Shown here: positions 1 through 43,971 of the stretch, one piece after another
Layout of the letters: the number at the start of each line of letters is the position of its first letter
How positions within the stretch are numbered: the stretch's first letter is position 1
Origin: Cupriavidus sp. AU9028
Lineage (GTDB): Bacteria > Pseudomonadota > Gammaproteobacteria > Burkholderiales > Burkholderiaceae
Assembly (NCBI RefSeq): GCF_019795295.1
Contig: NZ_JAIMCG010000025.1
Location: forward strand, 1-43,971
Direction: 5' to 3'
Length of the DNA stretch: 43,971 nt
Position numbers and translations under genes: made by a program
The notes under the pieces: generated by a model
Told to the model about the DNA's origin: nothing
The model's input: only the letters and a program-made list of their open reading frames with translations
The model's database searches: none

Positions 1-113
1 CGCGTCGCTCTCGCGCTCGGCTGACAACGTTGCAGCAAGTTCGACACCGCGGACATAGTGCACCGGTGCCGGCCGTTCCAACGGCAAGGCCGACACGTGC
101 TCCGGCGCTTCGT
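1..113. repeat. Terminal direct repeat, copy 1 (circular joint)
   Basis: Bases 1-113 are identical to bases 43859-43971. The repeat lies inside a coding region that stays in frame when the two ends are joined there. This is what an assembler overlap at the ends of a circular contig looks like. A genuine tandem repetition of the whole unit would look the same in this window. Confidence 0.95.
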
Positions 114-1977
114 ACAGCAAACAGCCCAGCGCCCAGTCACGTAGGACATCGTGCGCCGGCTCAGCGCGCACTGCGCTCAGCGCCCGGAGCGAGCCACTTT
201 CAATAAGTGCGGTGACAGCGTCGGCTGGCGTGGTGCTCGTGTCCATCGGCGCCGATGAGGCGAGCGCGTGCTCCGCGAGCGAGCGGAGCACGCGACGCCG
301 CTGCATGCGTCCTGTCGAGCTTGCCGAGTCGCCCGACTCCCACCACTGCCATGCCATCTGCGCCTCGCTGAAGACGGCCGCTGCGTCATCCGCCGTGCCT
401 CGGGCCAGCCTGTCAAGGCGGTACAAGTTCCGCACCACCTTGTGGGCCGGATGATCAGGCCGCAGCAAGGCGGCGAGCGCGGGACTGGCCGCGCACAACT
501 GCGCAATCTCGCTGTCTGACAGGTGATCGACAAGCAACGGGGGGGCCGTGCCCAGTTCCGCCAAGGCTCGCGCGGGCAACCACTCGCGCGCGTCGGCGTC
601 GAAGTCGAGCCGTGCCGTTGCCACGACCCGAAAACCCGGGACCTGCGCCGCGGCACGGAGCAGGTCTCTGACCGTCGCTCTCTGGGCCTCGTCGTCAAAC
701 CGGTCAATGCCATCGACAAACAAGGTGCCGCCACCATCACCGGCAAGGTCGGTCAAAAACTCGGAAGCAGATGCCGAACACCCGAGCTGCGCCGCCAGTG
801 CAGCCCAACCGCCTCCAGGAATATGATGCGGGGCGACTACGATGATGCGGGACTCAAGTTGAATCCGCTGAGCGAGGTTTTTGAGCACGCCAGATTTGCC
901 GACGCCGCCGGGACCACGGATCTCAAGGTAACGGCCACGGTCTAGAGCAGAAATGGCCTCTCCAACTCGATCGTCACGGTTCAGTGTCACGCCATGTACG
1001 GTCGAGCGAATAGCATCCAGCGTGCTTTCCGCGCTCTCCGCAAGCCGCTCTCGTGCACCATGCCAGTGCCGATCCCCGGCGAGCCGGTAACCGCGCTCGC
1101 TGGTGAGGCGCTCACGCAAGGCTGGCGCGTCCAACTCGCCTCCCGCAGCATCGATTTCGAGAGCTATTTCTTGCAGCGAGTCCCACAGCGCATTCGCTCG
1201 CGCTGCGTCTTCAGGCGCCAGCAGCATCGCGCACCGATCTCTCGCCAATTGGTTGCAGACGGACCCAGGCTGTTCGAAGTCGAACGCAAGGACCTGGAAG
1301 CGAGAGAGCAGCCGCCACACGGAAGCGTCGTCATTGGCTGCACCCGCCACGCCCATATGTCCCCGAAACACGTCGACGAAGCTGCGCATATCTTTGTGCG
1401 CCGCGCCGGGCTCGTTCATACGACGGAAGAAGCCGTCAGCGTCTCGATAGTCTCGAGCCCACCTCAATACGCTTTGAATGTGCTGCTCGACCTTTGTTGA
1501 TGTGCGCGCAATCGCCACCGCGAGCTCATGGCGCGTCTCAGCGAACGCCGGCAGGGCCGCCGCCTGACACGCCAGCGCAACGACATCCGCGAATGTTTCG
1601 TCGCTAGCTGTAAACGCCAGCGTGCGCTTGGCCTGAATCTCAAGCGTCGCCGGCCGGCCGAAGCGATCGTGTCCCGCGACGATAATGTCGTCCATCGGGT
1701 GGCCCATGGCCCCGCGTTGGAACGCTACCCGAGTGACTACGACTCCCGGCAGCCCACGGGCCTCCCCTCTTGAGAGCAGCGGCAATAGGTACTGCGCGCC
1801 GACATGGCCCTCCAGCCGAGCGCCGGCTGGCCCTGCAGCGGCAGGGCTCGCGGCGGCGGGTGCGTCATCCGCGCGGCGAGGGGGGCGCTTGCTCTTATGA
1901 GTGTTGGGCTCAGCGGCGTCGGAGGAGGATTTCTTCGCCCTGGACAGCGAGTCAGGCTTATTTTCAGGTGTCGTCAT
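1..1977 (-). CDS. PD-(D/E)xK nuclease-STAND NTPase fusion, 5' 659 codons (gene crosses the joint)
   Basis: Joined through the circular overlap, the frame from ATG 1977 runs to TGA at 43703-43705 and encodes 710 residues; I translated every codon and met no stop. Residues 1-45 are charged and Ala/Pro-rich. At about 54-65 there is a GHVGAQYLLPLL stretch, then Asp96-Asp97 and Glu113-x-Gln115-x-Lys117, which fits a PD-(D/E)xK nuclease core of the Cap4/DUF4297 or Mrr kind. Walker A GPGGVGKS ends at Ser362; Walker B-like LFVDGID is at 419-425. The rest is alpha-helical and Leu/Ala-rich. Nuclease-STAND fusions occur among antiphage sensors of the Avs kind, so a defence role is inferred. About 285 residues follow Walker B, which is short for such sensors, so the C-terminal sensor may be reduced. 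It starts 110 bp after the RES gene and is followed by copF. The RBS (gagaag) is weak. Confidence 0.75.
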   Translation of the reverse strand, partial: MTTPENKPDSLSRAKKSSSDAAEPNTHKSKRPPRRADDAPAAASPAAAGPAGARLEGHVGAQYLLPLLSRGEARGLPGVVVTRVAFQRGAMGHPMDDIIVAGHDRFGRPATLEIQAKRTLAFTASDETFADVVALACQAAALPAFAETRHELAVAIARTSTKVEQHIQSVLRWARDYRDADGFFRRMNEPGAAHKDMRSFVDVFRGHMGVAGAANDDASVWRLLSRFQVLAFDFEQPGSVCNQLARDRCAMLLAPEDAARANALWDSLQEIALEIDAAGGELDAPALRERLTSERGYRLAGDRHWHGARERLAESAESTLDAIRSTVHGVTLNRDDRVGEAISALDRGRYLEIRGPGGVGKSGVLKNLAQRIQLESRIIVVAPHHIPGGGWAALAAQLGCSASASEFLTDLAGDGGGTLFVDGIDRFDDEAQRATVRDLLRAAAQVPGFRVVATARLDFDADAREWLPARALAELGTAPPLLVDHLSDSEIAQLCAASPALAALLRPDHPAHKVVRNLYRLDRLARGTADDAAAVFSEAQMAWQWWESGDSASSTGRMQRRRVLRSLAEHALASSAPMDTSTTPADAVTALIESGSLRALSAVRAEPAHDVLRDWALGCLLYEAPEHVSALPLERPAPVHYVRGVELAATLSAERESDA

Positions 1978-2087: not shown

Positions 2088-2789
2088 TCAATCGATAGAA
2101 AAATGGCCGGACATCGGATCGGCATAGTTCGCGTCGGACCGCAGCGCTTCATAGTGCGGCATCAACGCGAAAGGCGTCACCTGGACCCCGACGCTGTTGC
2201 GGAACCGGTCGAGCGCCTCGGAGCTAACTGCCAGCGCACCATGGTTCTTGTGTTTGCGCGAGGGATACCGGAAGCCAAGCACAGCGCCCCCGGGCAAGCC
2301 GTCCAAGACGTCGAACATCTGCAGCCCAAACCATTGGCACCAGTCGTGGTCACCGTGAATCCGGTCGTAGATGCCCAGCTTGCTCAGTGCAGTGCCATGA
2401 AGGTCAACAATTCGCAGATCCTCCTGCAGCGTGAAGGTGACCAGCAAGCCCGATTGGGTAACCGCAGCCGGGATATAGAAGGTCCCCGGCTGTGTCATGT
2501 CGTTGGTGCAAAAGCCCGATTCCCACAAGGCCGTTAGAAGGTCCTGCGCGGCATACAGCCAGTACAGCGAAAACTGACCGTCCGGTCCGCGAAGCGCCTC
2601 GGGAGGGCCGAACCGGTACGTTTGTTGGACATAGGCCGGGACGACCGCAGCCGGGTGCCGGACAGCTCGGAAGAGCCGCGTGCCGGCCGGCAGGACCACC
2701 ACGGCGTCAGCCAAGGCTCGACGCAGGTGGTCCAAGGAAGGAAGGAAGGCTGCAATCGACGGCGGTACAACGATGTTGGGCGATGGCAT
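2088..2789 (-). CDS. RES-domain toxin (NAD+-targeting family)
   Basis: A 233-residue protein with the RES fold pattern. TRLFRA near residue 27 carries the conserved Arg. YRFGPP and LYWLYAAQDLLTALWES carry the conserved aromatic and the Glu of the rFgp...LYxA...tAl.E signature. A later GFRYPSRKH segment matches the family's C-terminal part. RES toxins of RES-Xre modules resemble ADP-ribosyltransferases and degrade NAD+. I start it at ATG 2789, 7 bp after the stop of the upstream gene; the longer frame to 2906 would overlap that gene widely. Its partner is the 204-residue antitoxin-like protein immediately upstream. That order (antitoxin first, toxin second) is usual for RES-Xre pairs. Activity is inferred from the family. 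Confidence 0.8.
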   Translation of the reverse strand: MPSPNIVVPPSIAAFLPSLDHLRRALADAVVVLPAGTRLFRAVRHPAAVVPAYVQQTYRFGPPEALRGPDGQFSLYWLYAAQDLLTALWESGFCTNDMTQPGTFYIPAAVTQSGLLVTFTLQEDLRIVDLHGTALSKLGIYDRIHGDHDWCQWFGLQMFDVLDGLPGGAVLGFRYPSRKHKNHGALAVSSEALDRFRNSVGVQVTPFALMPHYEALRSDANYADPMSGHFSID

Positions 2790-2796
2790 CAACTGA

Positions 2797-3411
2797 TCAG
2801 TTCCGAACTGCGTTGGGCAGTGCGGCCAACTGCGCGACCACCCTGCCCTGCCGCTCGTTTGCGGGTTCGGCGAGGTGGCCACGCTGTGCGGTGGTGAGCG
2901 CCGCACGCGATTCGAAGGCCTTACCTGCCAGCAGTTCGGCCGGCGTCAGGTCGTCGAACGCGTCGACCGGGGTTACCCAGAACGCGTGGATTTCGCTGCT
3001 CGGCAGGTCTTTCATCTGCCGCAGGACCGCAGCCAAGAGCTCCGGTACCGGTGGCGAGAACTGCCAGGCCGGGAACGCGCGACCGATCGCCTTGCCGCGC
3101 GGGGTCACGCAATAAAAGCGTGCGTCCTCCACTGCGCGGTACAGCGTCGCCTGCGACATCTCCACCAGATCCTGTGCAATGACCTCCGAGGGCTTCAGAT
3201 ATGACACGGAGAGCCGATCGTCCGTCTCTGCCAACGGCGCTTCCGCGAGACCAAGCGTGGTCGTGAGGCACCGGCGCACGACGGCCATTACGCGGGCGCG
3301 TTCGCCGGCGTCAAGGGTGTGCTCCAGCTGCTCATCAATGTCGTGGACCAATTTCTCGACCAGTTGGGAGCCGCGCGCGGCGACCGATGCCGATTGGGCG
3401 TGCAGTGTCAT
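2797..3411 (-). CDS. Antitoxin-like protein of the Xre/MbcA/ParS type, partner of RES
   Basis: A 204-residue protein. Its second half matches the shape of antitoxins that precede RES toxins: a short helical region with ATLYRAVEDARFYCVTP, then FPAWQF, a VPELLAAVLRQM helix, and VDAFDDLTPAELLAGKAF, the end of the toxin-binding DUF2384-like domain. Residues 1-90 have no motif I recognise; they would hold the DNA-binding part, but no clear helix-turn-helix is visible. The RBS GGAG (about 3419-3422) overlaps the end of the upstream gene (stop 3424-3426), so the two are probably translationally coupled. It ends 7 bp before the RES start. It may autorepress the operon, as in characterised RES-Xre pairs. 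Confidence 0.65.
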   Translation of the reverse strand: MTLHAQSASVAARGSQLVEKLVHDIDEQLEHTLDAGERARVMAVVRRCLTTTLGLAEAPLAETDDRLSVSYLKPSEVIAQDLVEMSQATLYRAVEDARFYCVTPRGKAIGRAFPAWQFSPPVPELLAAVLRQMKDLPSSEIHAFWVTPVDAFDDLTPAELLAGKAFESRAALTTAQRGHLAEPANERQGRVVAQLAALPNAVRN

Positions 3412-3423
3412 ATCAATACTCCG

Positions 3424-4056
3424 TCAGATGACCACGCGGGGCGGTGCAAACGCTGGGTGGATGGTGGCCTCTCGTTTGGCGCGCAAGCAGGAAACGACGT
3501 CGCAGGTCTGGGCGGACTTTTGCGGAAGTCCGGCAGCGATTGCGTGGCTACACCGACGAACACGCGCTACGAGTCTTCGCAGGAAGATCCGGAATAGTTG
3601 TTTCACCCGGTGGCGTTCTGCGATCACGTCTGTGTCGCACCCGAGCGTAACAAGGGCGTACACGTAGTCCAGGTAGAAGCCGGGACTGCTGGCAGACGCG
3701 AGGCCAGCGAAAACCCGCTTGGCCACGCGCCGCATCATGCGGTACTCGTCGATGGACAGCGTGATGGTTTGGAGCGGCTGCGCCAACGGCATGTAACGCG
3801 TCGGGTTGTCATCGGAATTCCGATGGATGACGGCCCGCTTCTTCTGCATCTCTAGGGCGATGTGGCTACCCACAGCATCCTCGCTCCTTCCATGGGACCG
3901 TTTCATGTAGGTCAACAGGGAGGTCTTATCTGCCTCGGTGACCGTGTCGGCAGGGCCAGTATGGGGTAGCCCGGCGGCCTGCAGTTGCTCCAGCAGTGCT
4001 TCGGGCTGACGGCCGAGTTGCGCGGCCAGAGATGCGACGGTAGTGATTCGAGCCAT
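3424..4056 (-). CDS. Small protein with an IF-2 N-terminal-like domain
   Basis: A 210-residue protein from ATG 4056. Residues 1-56 (MARITTVASLAAQL, then VTEADKTSLLTYMKRSHG) closely follow the IF2_N domain found in repeats at the N-terminus of bacterial translation initiation factor IF-2. No GTPase or other IF-2 domain follows. The middle part (TITLSIDEYRMMRRVAKRVF...) and the basic C-terminus are unknown to me. It is first in an apparent operon with the antitoxin-like gene (12-bp gap, RBS overlapping its stop) and the RES toxin. A candidate promoter lies just upstream, but no clear RBS is seen. The longer frame to 4119 would start upstream of that promoter's predicted transcription start, so I prefer 4056. 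Function unknown. Confidence 0.65.
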   Translation of the reverse strand: MARITTVASLAAQLGRQPEALLEQLQAAGLPHTGPADTVTEADKTSLLTYMKRSHGRSEDAVGSHIALEMQKKRAVIHRNSDDNPTRYMPLAQPLQTITLSIDEYRMMRRVAKRVFAGLASASSPGFYLDYVYALVTLGCDTDVIAERHRVKQLFRIFLRRLVARVRRCSHAIAAGLPQKSAQTCDVVSCLRAKREATIHPAFAPPRVVI

Positions 4057-4081
4057 GGTTGATTTTGTATCGGACCGTCCT

Positions 4082-20538: not shown

Positions 20539-21582
20539 GTGCCGCTCGCTCAACGCTCAGTCTTTGACATCCCAAAGATGGATTGTCCGTCCGAGGAGAA
20601 CCTGATCCGCTTCACTCTCTCGGTCGTACCGGGCATCCGGTCGCTCTCGTTCGACTTAGGCAACCGGCAAATGACCGCCGTGCATGAGGGGGACGCCCGG
20701 GCCCTCTTGCAAAAGCTCGAGCCATTAAACCTCGGTGCGCAGCTTTCCCAATCGGAGGCTATTGAGGACGAAGGCACCACAGCTCACAAGAAGACTGTTT
20801 TCTCGATTCCCAAGATGGATTGCCCATCCGAGGAGAACTTGATCCGCATGGCGCTGGGCGATCTGCCGGGCGGTGCGACGATGAGCTTTGACCTGAGTAA
20901 CCGGCAGTTGACTGTCCTTCACGCGGCATCGGCCGAAGACTTACTCAGACGGCTTACGCCGCTTGACCTGGGAGCAACGCTAGCGACTTCGGAATCGGCG
21001 GATCCAGTGGATGAGCTGCTGTCAAATGAGGGGGACGTCAGCGAAGCGCAAACGCTTCGGCTTCTCCTGGTCATCAATGGTGTGATGTTCCTGTTGGAAA
21101 TCATACTGGGCCTGGTGGCCCAGTCGACAGGACTGATTGCCGATTCATTGGATATGTTTGCGGACGCGGCCGTGTATGGTCTCGCGCTGTATGCTGTCGG
21201 CCGGGCGGCAAGCATGAAACTCAAGGCGGCGCACTTCGCCGGCTGGCTACAGCTCGCCCTGGCGCTCGGCGCGCTAGCGGAGGTGGCGCGGCGGTTCGCG
21301 TTTGGCAGTGAACCGGAATCGGCGTTGATGTTGGGCGTCGGTTTGCTAGCCTTGGTGGCAAATGTTGGCTGCCTGGTACTGATCGCGCGCAAGCGCGATC
21401 GTGGCGCGCACATGAAAGCAAGCTATATCTTTTCGGCGAACGACGTGGTCGCTAACCTGGGCGTCATCGCCGCCGGACTTCTGGTGGCTTGGACCGGTTC
21501 TGCGTATCCCGATCTCGTGATCGGTATGGTGATCGGGCTCGTGGTGTTGAATGGGGCGAGACGGATTCTCAAGCTCAGCTAA
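20539..21582 (+). CDS. CDF-type cation transporter with two N-terminal HMA-like domains
   Basis: 347 residues. Two tandem HMA-like domains begin at residues 6 and 85, each with IPKMDCPSEENLIR; they are diverged duplicates with one Cys instead of CxxC. A CDF membrane domain follows from about 170, with about six helices. Helix 2 carries SLDMFADAAVYG, which offers the usual acidic pair. The position of the helix 5 HxxxD motif reads FSAND, so the histidine is missing. The C-terminal cytoplasmic CDF domain is also absent; the protein ends after the last helix. It probably moves a divalent metal together with PbrT, but the substrate and direction are unknown. Confidence 0.75.
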   Translation: MPLAQRSVFDIPKMDCPSEENLIRFTLSVVPGIRSLSFDLGNRQMTAVHEGDARALLQKLEPLNLGAQLSQSEAIEDEGTTAHKKTVFSIPKMDCPSEENLIRMALGDLPGGATMSFDLSNRQLTVLHAASAEDLLRRLTPLDLGATLATSESADPVDELLSNEGDVSEAQTLRLLLVINGVMFLLEIILGLVAQSTGLIADSLDMFADAAVYGLALYAVGRAASMKLKAAHFAGWLQLALALGALAEVARRFAFGSEPESALMLGVGLLALVANVGCLVLIARKRDRGAHMKASYIFSANDVVANLGVIAAGLLVAWTGSAYPDLVIGMVIGLVVLNGARRILKLS

Positions 21583-28543: not shown

Positions 28544-29740
28544 ATGCATAAGCGAACAAGAACGATTCTTGCTGCCGCGGTCCTGACGTCCGCCGGCATC
28601 GGCACGACGTGGGCGCAGGCCACCCATTCCCCGGAGGCCCACGCGGGCGCTTCGGCCGCGGATCCGACCAGGAAGGCCGACGCCCCAGCGCGATCGAAGT
28701 CCGTCGGCAAAGCAAATGGTACGGGTGGCAAGGACCACGGCTCGATGCCGGGCATGGACCATGGCTCGATGCAGGGCATGGATCACGGCTCGATGCCGGG
28801 CATGGATCACGGCTCGATGCAGGGTATGGACCACGGCTCGATGCAGGGCATGGATCACGGCTCGATGCAGGGCATGGATCACGGCTCGATGCAGGGTATG
28901 GACCACGGCTCGATGCAGGGCATGGATCACGGCTCGATGCAGGGTATGGACCATGGCTCGATGCAGGGCATGGATCACGGCGACATGAAAATGCAAGGCG
29001 GCAGCGCTCCGCCCGACGCGCGCGATCCGCATGGCTATTCCGGTGGCTATCAACTCGGGGTCGGCAAGTATGCGCTCGGGCCGACCCGAACGCTCCATAT
29101 GGCGGACGAACATCTGTTTGCTTCCGTGCTGGTGGATCGCCTGGAATGGACCAAGGGCCGAGACAGTAATGCAGCGTCCTACGAGGCGCAGGCCTGGTTC
29201 GGCAACTCCTACGACAAGCTGGTGATCAAGGCTGAAGGGGAGGCCGAAGAAGGCAAGGTGCACGAGGCTCGCACCGAACTGCTGTGGGGCCATTCCATTG
29301 CGACGTTCTGGGATACCCAGGTCGGTATTCGAAACGATGCTGGCTACGGCAGACCGGCTCGGAACTGGCTGGCGTTCGGTGTGCAAGGCCTGGCGCCCTA
29401 CTGGTTCGAAGTCGATGCGACCGGCTACGTCGGCACCGAAGGCAGGACCGCGCTTCGACTCTCCGCCGAATACGAGCTTCTGATTACGCAGCGTCTGATC
29501 CTGCAGCCGCGAATCGAAGCCAACTTCTACGGCAAGAACGACCCTGAAATCGGTATCGGCAGCGGCCTGGCCAATGGCGCCGTGGGCGTGCGCCTGCGCT
29601 ATGAGATTAACCGGCAGTTCGCACCGTATATCGGCGTCGAGCGATATCAGACATTCGGCAATACCGCCGACATGATTCGCACGGCAGGCGGTCGTCGTGG
29701 CGAGACCCGCTTTGTGGCCGGTGTTCGTATTTGGTTCTGA
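28544..29740 (+). CDS. copB: CopB outer-membrane copper-resistance protein
   Basis: 398 residues. The signal peptide ends near ATTWAQ-like TTWAQA. Residues 64-148 are eleven DHG units, ten in exact octapeptide register DHGSM(Q/P)GM, giving a Met/His copper-binding arm. The rest matches the CopB beta-barrel (YALGPTRTLHMADE..., LLWGHSIATFWDTQVGIRND, final VAGVRIWF with a terminal Phe typical of outer-membrane proteins). It starts 22 bp after copA. Confidence 0.94.
   Translation: MHKRTRTILAAAVLTSAGIGTTWAQATHSPEAHAGASAADPTRKADAPARSKSVGKANGTGGKDHGSMPGMDHGSMQGMDHGSMPGMDHGSMQGMDHGSMQGMDHGSMQGMDHGSMQGMDHGSMQGMDHGSMQGMDHGSMQGMDHGDMKMQGGSAPPDARDPHGYSGGYQLGVGKYALGPTRTLHMADEHLFASVLVDRLEWTKGRDSNAASYEAQAWFGNSYDKLVIKAEGEAEEGKVHEARTELLWGHSIATFWDTQVGIRNDAGYGRPARNWLAFGVQGLAPYWFEVDATGYVGTEGRTALRLSAEYELLITQRLILQPRIEANFYGKNDPEIGIGSGLANGAVGVRLRYEINRQFAPYIGVERYQTFGNTADMIRTAGGRRGETRFVAGVRIWF
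28733..28988 (+). repeat. 24-bp tandem repeat array in copB
   Basis: Ten 24-bp units (for example gaccatggctcgatgcag plus ggcatg) start at 28733, with a partial eleventh from 28973. Units differ mainly at silent third positions (gac/gat, ggc/ggt) and at Q/P. All reading frames are open through it, so long spurious frames appear on both strands. Confidence 0.93.
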
Positions 29741-32362: not shown

Positions 32363-32638
32363 TCAGATGCCGTCGGTGAAAGCGTCGCGCGTTCCGGCCG
32401 CGTGGCTACCGTCCGTGAAGGTGTCCCGCGTGCCTGTAGTATGGGCGCCATCGGAGAACAGGTCGCGCGTACCTGTAGTATGACTGCCATCGGTGAAGGG
32501 ATCGCGCGTGCCCATCGTGTGGCCACCGGTAGTGAAGATATCGCGCGACGATGTTACGCCGGCATTCGCCAGTCCTGCTGCGCTGCCCAGCGACGCAATC
32601 GTCAATACCAAGAGAGCAGCCTTCTTCAACGTACGCAT
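32363..32638 (-). CDS. Small secreted protein with five 13-residue repeats
   Basis: 91 residues from ATG 32638 with a strong RBS (AAGGAG). After the signal peptide (LLVLTIASLGSAAGLANA), almost the whole mature protein is five copies of RDxFTDGSHTTGT; the first is diverged and the last truncated. The DNA repeat is 39 bp. Short repetitive periplasmic proteins of this kind occur in cop clusters (CopQ-like is possible), but I am not sure of the name. The His, Asp and Thr pattern could bind metal. Confidence 0.7.
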   Translation of the reverse strand: MRTLKKAALLVLTIASLGSAAGLANAGVTSSRDIFTTGGHTMGTRDPFTDGSHTTGTRDLFSDGAHTTGTRDTFTDGSHAAGTRDAFTDGI

Positions 32639-43702: not shown

Positions 43703-43971
43703 TCAGCCACTGACCGACCACAACCGCGCTTGGCAGAGTCCGACGTCGAGCGCGCCCGCCTCCAACGCCAGGCTATCGAAGGGTGCCTGTCGGTCTTGCA
43801 ACGCTCCCTTGCCCAGGTCCGGCGTGCTTACGCGATCCAACCAGGCGAGCCATGCGTGCGCGTCGCTCTCGCGCTCGGCTGACAACGTTGCAGCAAGTTC
43901 GACACCGCGGACATAGTGCACCGGTGCCGGCCGTTCCAACGGCAAGGCCGACACGTGCTCCGGCGCTTCGT
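43703..43971 (-). CDS. 3' end of the nuclease-STAND NTPase gene
   Basis: This is the continuation of the gene that begins at 1977. Bases 43859-43971 repeat 1-113, and 43703-43858 supply the last 51 residues and TGA. The C-terminus reads ...[11 protein letters not shown]. Just past the stop, a different frame (from about 43706 down to 43607) stays open and looks protein-like ([12 protein letters not shown]...), ending immediately before the copF operator. A one-base frameshift that removed about 34 residues is therefore possible but not shown. The copF promoter begins only about 95 bp beyond this stop, so the end of this gene may have been trimmed when the metal genes were joined to it. Confidence 0.7.
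43859..43971. repeat. Terminal direct repeat, copy 2
   Basis: Identical to bases 1-113 (see copy 1). The sequence upstream (43703-43858) supplies the end of the gene interrupted by the window start. Confidence 0.95.

Follow-up and report, generated by a model that had tools for sequence, protein, structure and literature searches.

A probable Avs4-like STAND sensor gene with a putative nuclease domain, split between two contigs of Cupriavidus sp. AU9028

The stretch of DNA analysed here (the window; 43,971 nucleotides of Cupriavidus sp. AU9028, contig NZ_JAIMCG010000025.1, numbered C17 among the 42 contigs of the genome) begins inside a large gene for a STAND protein with a nuclease-like N-terminal domain, about the first third of which it contains (Table 1). 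A minus-strand open frame starting from the ATG at position 1977 encodes 659 amino acids (aa) and exits the window's left end at position 1. An earlier note, made from the letters alone, had taken the gene to be cut by the contig ends and had arrived at a protein of 710 residues by a circular join (659 + 51). The gene does run off the left end, but joining the window's own ends is unsupported; the continuation lies on another contig of the same genome, C7 (120,194 bp), the right end of which carries a frame of 1147 aa, 37 of them shared with the window part. The whole protein accordingly has 659 + 1110 = 1769 residues, approximately the length found in 20 full-length relatives, and includes a helical C-terminal region of about 1100 residues. 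A short, sensor-less nuclease-STAND protein would have been surprising, whereas the actual protein is not.

The contig ends account for the misleading join. Positions 1-113 of the window are identical to positions 43859-43971, an exact 113-bp match that favors a circle but does not prove one, because C7 has the same ends. The last 127 bp are identical between the right ends of C7 and C17, the first 127 bp between their left ends, and 113 bp are common to all four ends. The sequences thus imply a repeat of about 141 bp that two paths enter and two paths leave, rather than a circle. The graph alone, therefore, also permits two circles, namely, the window as a real 44-kb molecule encoding a real 710-residue nuclease-STAND protein, and C7 as a second, 120-kb one. 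The relatives make this reading extremely improbable: all 20 full-length relatives align with the 1110 C7 residues (expectation value (E) of 8.6e-10 or better), whereas the 51 residues added from the window's own right end produce no significant match among the same 20 (best E 0.16, over a dozen or so residues beside the repeat; one 57-column alignment, 32%, E 0.24). The C7 match starts at positions 1-3 past the shared stretch in 16 of the 20 relatives and at positions 82-92 in L047, L053, L054 and L055; in L047, L051, L052, L053, L054 and L055, the C7 residues are aligned over just 449-572 columns. Furthermore, the two-circle reading breaks both copies of the gene: the left end of C7 carries a second copy in decay (96% identical) that has two 1-bp deletions and ends abruptly, the match stopping after about 485 bp. 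The right end of C17 is the other edge of this decayed copy, with similarity fading within about 40 bp past the shared stretch; the 88-aa open frame at this edge is the source of the last 51 residues of the 710-residue version. Given the ends shared with C7, the decayed left end of C7 and the agreement of the relatives with its right end, the circular reading of the window was rejected.

The simple reading of these ends is one intact gene, running from the right end of C7 into the left end of C17, and one dead fragment, running from the right end of C17 into the left end of C7; without a continuation of the window's left end into the right end of C7, the gene would not be intact in this genome. 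The assembly break is due to the dead fragment, a decayed partial duplicate about 0.5 kb long. Arithmetic on the ends gives about 164 kb for the single molecule that C7 and C17 would then form, perhaps a plasmid, given that PRTRC genes of Cupriavidus plasmids find matches in one part of C7. A large defence gene can be spread over two contigs by such a duplicate and may then escape gene finders. The duplicate (window 43807-43971 and C7 1-485, with the repeat at window 1-127) lies in direct orientation about 42 kb from the intact gene, a region that includes metal-transport genes lying between the two; recombination between the gene and its duplicate could excise or fuse this intervening region.

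A scan of genome contigs identified eight close relatives (62-73% identity). In seven of these, the window part and the C7 part share a single frame, 1758-1819 residues long from stop to stop; the eighth, a Bradyrhizobium relative (L019, 9905-15210), has a frameshift near the N-terminus, close to the boundary of the nuclease-like domain, with the junction remaining in frame. Thirteen further full-length members (three on named plasmids, ten in genomes) were added, and after omission of L019, 20 proteins were aligned (1702-1845 aa; 20-74% identical to the full-length relative L021, from Rhizobacter Root1221). Also left out were L048, partial matches in G166, G471 and G591, a very weak one in G040, the genome's own broken pieces, and all but 3 of the 21 plasmid records. 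The three plasmid records retained (H1, H3 and H4) are circular and annotate the gene whole, as coding sequences of 5007, 5085 and 5145 bp. With the genome itself counted, matches were found in 4 of 60 near relatives (E<=0.001) and, at E<=1e-10, in 6 of 399 genomes sampled in the order and 10 of 398 sampled in the phylum; a scan of viral contigs yielded four stretches with a pattern and no relatives. The gene is rare and scattered, and is often found on mobile DNA.

The alignment of 20 combines Walker A, Walker B and an HD-type motif in one NTPase region, the hallmarks of a STAND NTPase, and four P-loop residues (G355, G358, G360 and K361) are identical in all 20. The Pfam nSTAND1 domain matches residues 334-503 at 24.3 bits, under the gathering cut-off of 27.1, and produces matches in seven of the eight close N-terminal parts at E<=1 (best 5.5e-6); weak nSTAND1 matches of this sort are unspecific, being present in 13 of the 14 control genomes. 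Two 8-row profiles returned no match at E<=1 in a sequence search of the PDB. The profile built from the 20 relatives did: Avs4 (8dgf, solved bound to the portal of phage PhiV-1) is the closest solved relative, with E 3.8e-26, the next match being at 0.009. The alignment covers Avs4 residues 190-670 and 747-999, so that the sequence profile relates 8dgf to the NTPase region, HD motif included, and to some of the C-terminal region. The fold may point, more weakly, to the same relationship. Foldseek with a model of the C-terminal region (predicted local distance difference test (pLDDT) 70.1; built from alignment A2, which includes the frameshifted L019) again gave 8dgf as the best match (E 1.2e-12, next unrelated match 1.1e-4), with 10-12% identity in the fold alignments. 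The resemblance to Avs-type sensors proposed in the earlier note is thus borne out.

A PD-(D/E)xK motif has (D/E/Q)xK downstream of a conserved acidic residue. The N-terminal domain displays the order D-(x)n-QxK, and D96, D97, Q115 and K117 are among just 12 columns of the domain that are invariant across the 20 relatives. All the residues singled out in the earlier note (D96, D97, E113, Q115, K117, the P-loop G355-S362 and the Walker B LFVDGIDR) lie where it had placed them; its ExQxK motif is present as well, with Q115 and K117 invariant but E113 variable. The nuclease fold was confirmed neither by profile searches nor by a usable model. The model of the N-terminal part is poor (pLDDT 49.8, and <50 throughout residues 1-125), and the predicted strands 97-103 and 109-115 fit the nuclease order at low confidence. 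A profile of the domain gave six matches in the PDB at E<=10, the best of which (0.0061, to 6egc, a designed helical protein) is not credible, and Pfam searches with 21 members of the domain returned nothing sensible. The Cap4 and Mrr-type nucleases (PF14130 and PF04471) have a similar D...QxK-type motif, but the profile-profile comparison was not significant: HHalign comparisons of the domain with 3 Cap4 and 18-20 Mrr sequences reached a best E of 0.14, a weak test given that several Mrr rows were in wrong frames in one run and at least 2 of 18 (L078 and L087) look out of frame in the other. These results would also fit a STAND sensor of the same build in which the N-terminal effector is inactive or is not a nuclease. 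We consider this alternative unlikely because the four motif residues, in the D-(x)n-QxK order, persist in relatives down to 20% identity, and the predicted strands, for all their low confidence, are compatible with the nuclease fold. The invariant motif and the strand order together make the N-terminal domain a likely nuclease of putative fold. A 1517-aa frame in L048 (6162-10712, minus strand) is similar solely in this nuclease-like part (29.5% over 122 aa); the confinement of the similarity suggests that the domain has been swapped between sensors.

Table 1. Coordinates of the sensor gene, its motifs and adjacent features in the window
Feature	Position	Strand	Basis or remark
N-terminal 659 residues of the ~1769-residue nuclease-STAND-helical sensor gene	1..1977	-	remainder on contig C7, right end
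Putative PD-(D/E)xK-type nuclease domain, residues 44-165	1483..1848	-	motif conservation and strand order of low-confidence model
D96 D97, putative metal ligands	1687..1692	-	identical in 20/20 relatives
E113-I-Q115-A-K117	1627..1641	-	Q115 and K117 identical in 20/20; E113 variable
Walker A GPGGVGKS, residues 355-362	892..915	-	frame translation and alignment of 20
Walker B TLFVDGIDR, residues 418-426	700..726	-	frame translation and alignment
HDVLRDW motif, residues 609-615	133..153	-	lines up with HDIYEEW of Avs4 8dgf
Contig-end repeat, left end	1..127	-	matches C7's left end exactly over 127 bp; its first 113 bp recur exactly at the right ends of window and C7
Edge of decayed duplicate fragment of the gene	43807..43971	-	88-aa open frame; other ~485 bp at C7's left end
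RES-domain gene, presumed toxin	2088..2795	-	PF08808, 30.3 bits vs cut-off 23.2
204-aa partner of RES gene, presumed antitoxin	2797..3411	-	no Pfam match

Examination of the genomic neighbourhoods bears on whether the gene functions in defence at all. Gabija genes (GajA and GajB) lie upstream of the gene in L016, Lamassu genes (LmuA and LmuB) adjoin it in L020, and a PD-T4-5/AbiD-like gene is located near the C7 end. These five matches are clear, unlike a RecD-like helicase in L015 and a weak match to PbeA in L021, both of which lack specificity. In L046 and L052, genes for TniQ, TniB and a Mu-type transposase follow the sensor gene, and L055 has a phage integrase and a TniQ match under its cut-off. 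The setting is, accordingly, mobile or defence-rich in some relatives. These matches come from two sets of ten proteins picked by eye, the first, scanned with PADLOC, from 6 of 9 loci, and the second including six transposition genes of L046 and L052. An alternative is that the protein is a STAND ATPase with a housekeeping or regulatory role outside defence, as might be argued from the 3 of 10 neighbour proteins tried that had no PADLOC match, and from at least one ordinary neighbourhood, a plasmid copy that adjoins sugar-transport genes. Because of the selection by eye and this latter copy, no rate of defence neighbours is claimed. The sporadic occurrence, the plasmid and transposon settings, the adjacent Gabija and Lamassu systems in one locus each, and Avs4 as the nearest solved relative all argue against a housekeeping role, as does the lack of a conserved partner gene, and we regard such a role as very unlikely. 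Comparison of the eight close loci with the window and C7 flanks detected nothing in common beyond the gene itself and the L014-L015 pair, weakly matched at 22%, in a survey with a crude frame caller (frames >=80 aa) that can miss small or overlapping neighbours.

In the window itself, three genes stand in a row beside the sensor gene (2088-4059): the RES gene, its partner and a small one of 211 aa with a weak IF2_N match just under the cut-off. The toxin-antitoxin pair reported in the earlier note is confirmed as far as the RES domain is concerned, its score being above the Pfam cut-off, but the partner lacks a Pfam match, and we presume it to be an antitoxin from its position. The pair is absent from the loci of the eight close relatives and so, by conservation, is not part of the system.

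Taking these observations together, we consider it probable that the gene encodes a single-gene, Avs4-like antiphage sensor with a DNA-cutting effector. The nuclease effectors of Avs1-4 are described in PMC12931631 as cleaving phage and host genomes after recognition of terminase, portal or another phage protein. By analogy with Avs1-4, the C-terminal helical region would recognise a phage protein, with the portal protein as the first candidate trigger, since the solved structure closest to this protein, Avs4, has a portal bound. Binding would allow the STAND NTPase region, with its Walker A, Walker B and HD motifs, to bind nucleotide and to assemble protomers; this assembly would bring the N-terminal D-QxK nuclease domains together, and these might then cut phage and host DNA, stopping the infection, probably by killing the cell.

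Several repeats were noticed elsewhere in the window. At 28679-29038, head-to-tail 24-bp units within a 398-aa plus-strand frame encode Met/His-rich repeats of the MQGMDHGS type, presumably as in copper-resistance proteins. At 32369-32563, repeats spaced at 39 bp are 67-71% alike to the first copy. A 347-aa frame at 20539-21582 has an internal repeat (42 bp, 88%), which points to a duplicated stretch (IPKMDCPSEENLIR).

Comparison with catalogued defence systems places the protein near, but not fully within, the families searched. The NCBIfam equivalog for Avs4 (NF041815) scores 15.1 bits for the 659-aa part and 21.8 bits for the full-length L021, far under the cut-off of 1500, so that membership in curated Avs4 was rejected; none of the 369 genomes of the class searched exceeded this cut-off. 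The relationship itself is consistent across the group, with NF041815 matching 19 of the 20 members at E<=0.01 (best E 6.3e-28) and the Avs4 model of PADLOC matching 16 of 20 at E<=0.001. The earlier note had called the sensor a candidate undescribed one and had proposed a PADLOC search; the latter turned up a related candidate, PDC-M54A, so the claim has to be narrowed, but the match is only partial, spanning the nuclease-like domain and the NTPase (residues 40-507 of the window part against model positions 8-487, E 1.3e-12). It is likewise partial in each of the four proteins for which ranges are given. The two PDC-M54A models (1621 and 1657 long) are similar in length to this protein and match 17 and 9 of the 20 members, respectively, at E<=0.001. 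The PADLOC name PDC-M54A presumably denotes a multi-gene system, whereas here no partner gene is conserved. A literature search found no paper naming both 'PDC-M54' and 'PADLOC', and a search of titles and abstract openings found no description of this clade. Judged by these profiles, the Avs4-like branch is not fully covered by any curated family searched. That it constitutes a separate, uncharacterised Avs-like sensor type, scattered through Pseudomonadota on plasmids and Tni/Tn7-type transposons, whose nuclease domain forms a distinct family and whose trigger is not the portal protein, is a tentative proposal that we find possible but somewhat doubtful. Avs2 (9o4e), a STAND NTPase with a nuclease effector according to PMC12931631, is alike in build but differs in yielding a marginal P-loop match alone (E 0.049). 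The clade represents a testable Avs4-like branch, with intact members in complete plasmids. The N-terminal domains of Avs4 and of this protein are without a match found between them, yet both proteins have the effector in the N-terminal position, and far from being shorter after the NTPase than Avs proteins, as the 710-residue version had suggested, the whole protein, at about 1769 aa, is of a size similar to 8dgf and exceeds its 1587 aa.
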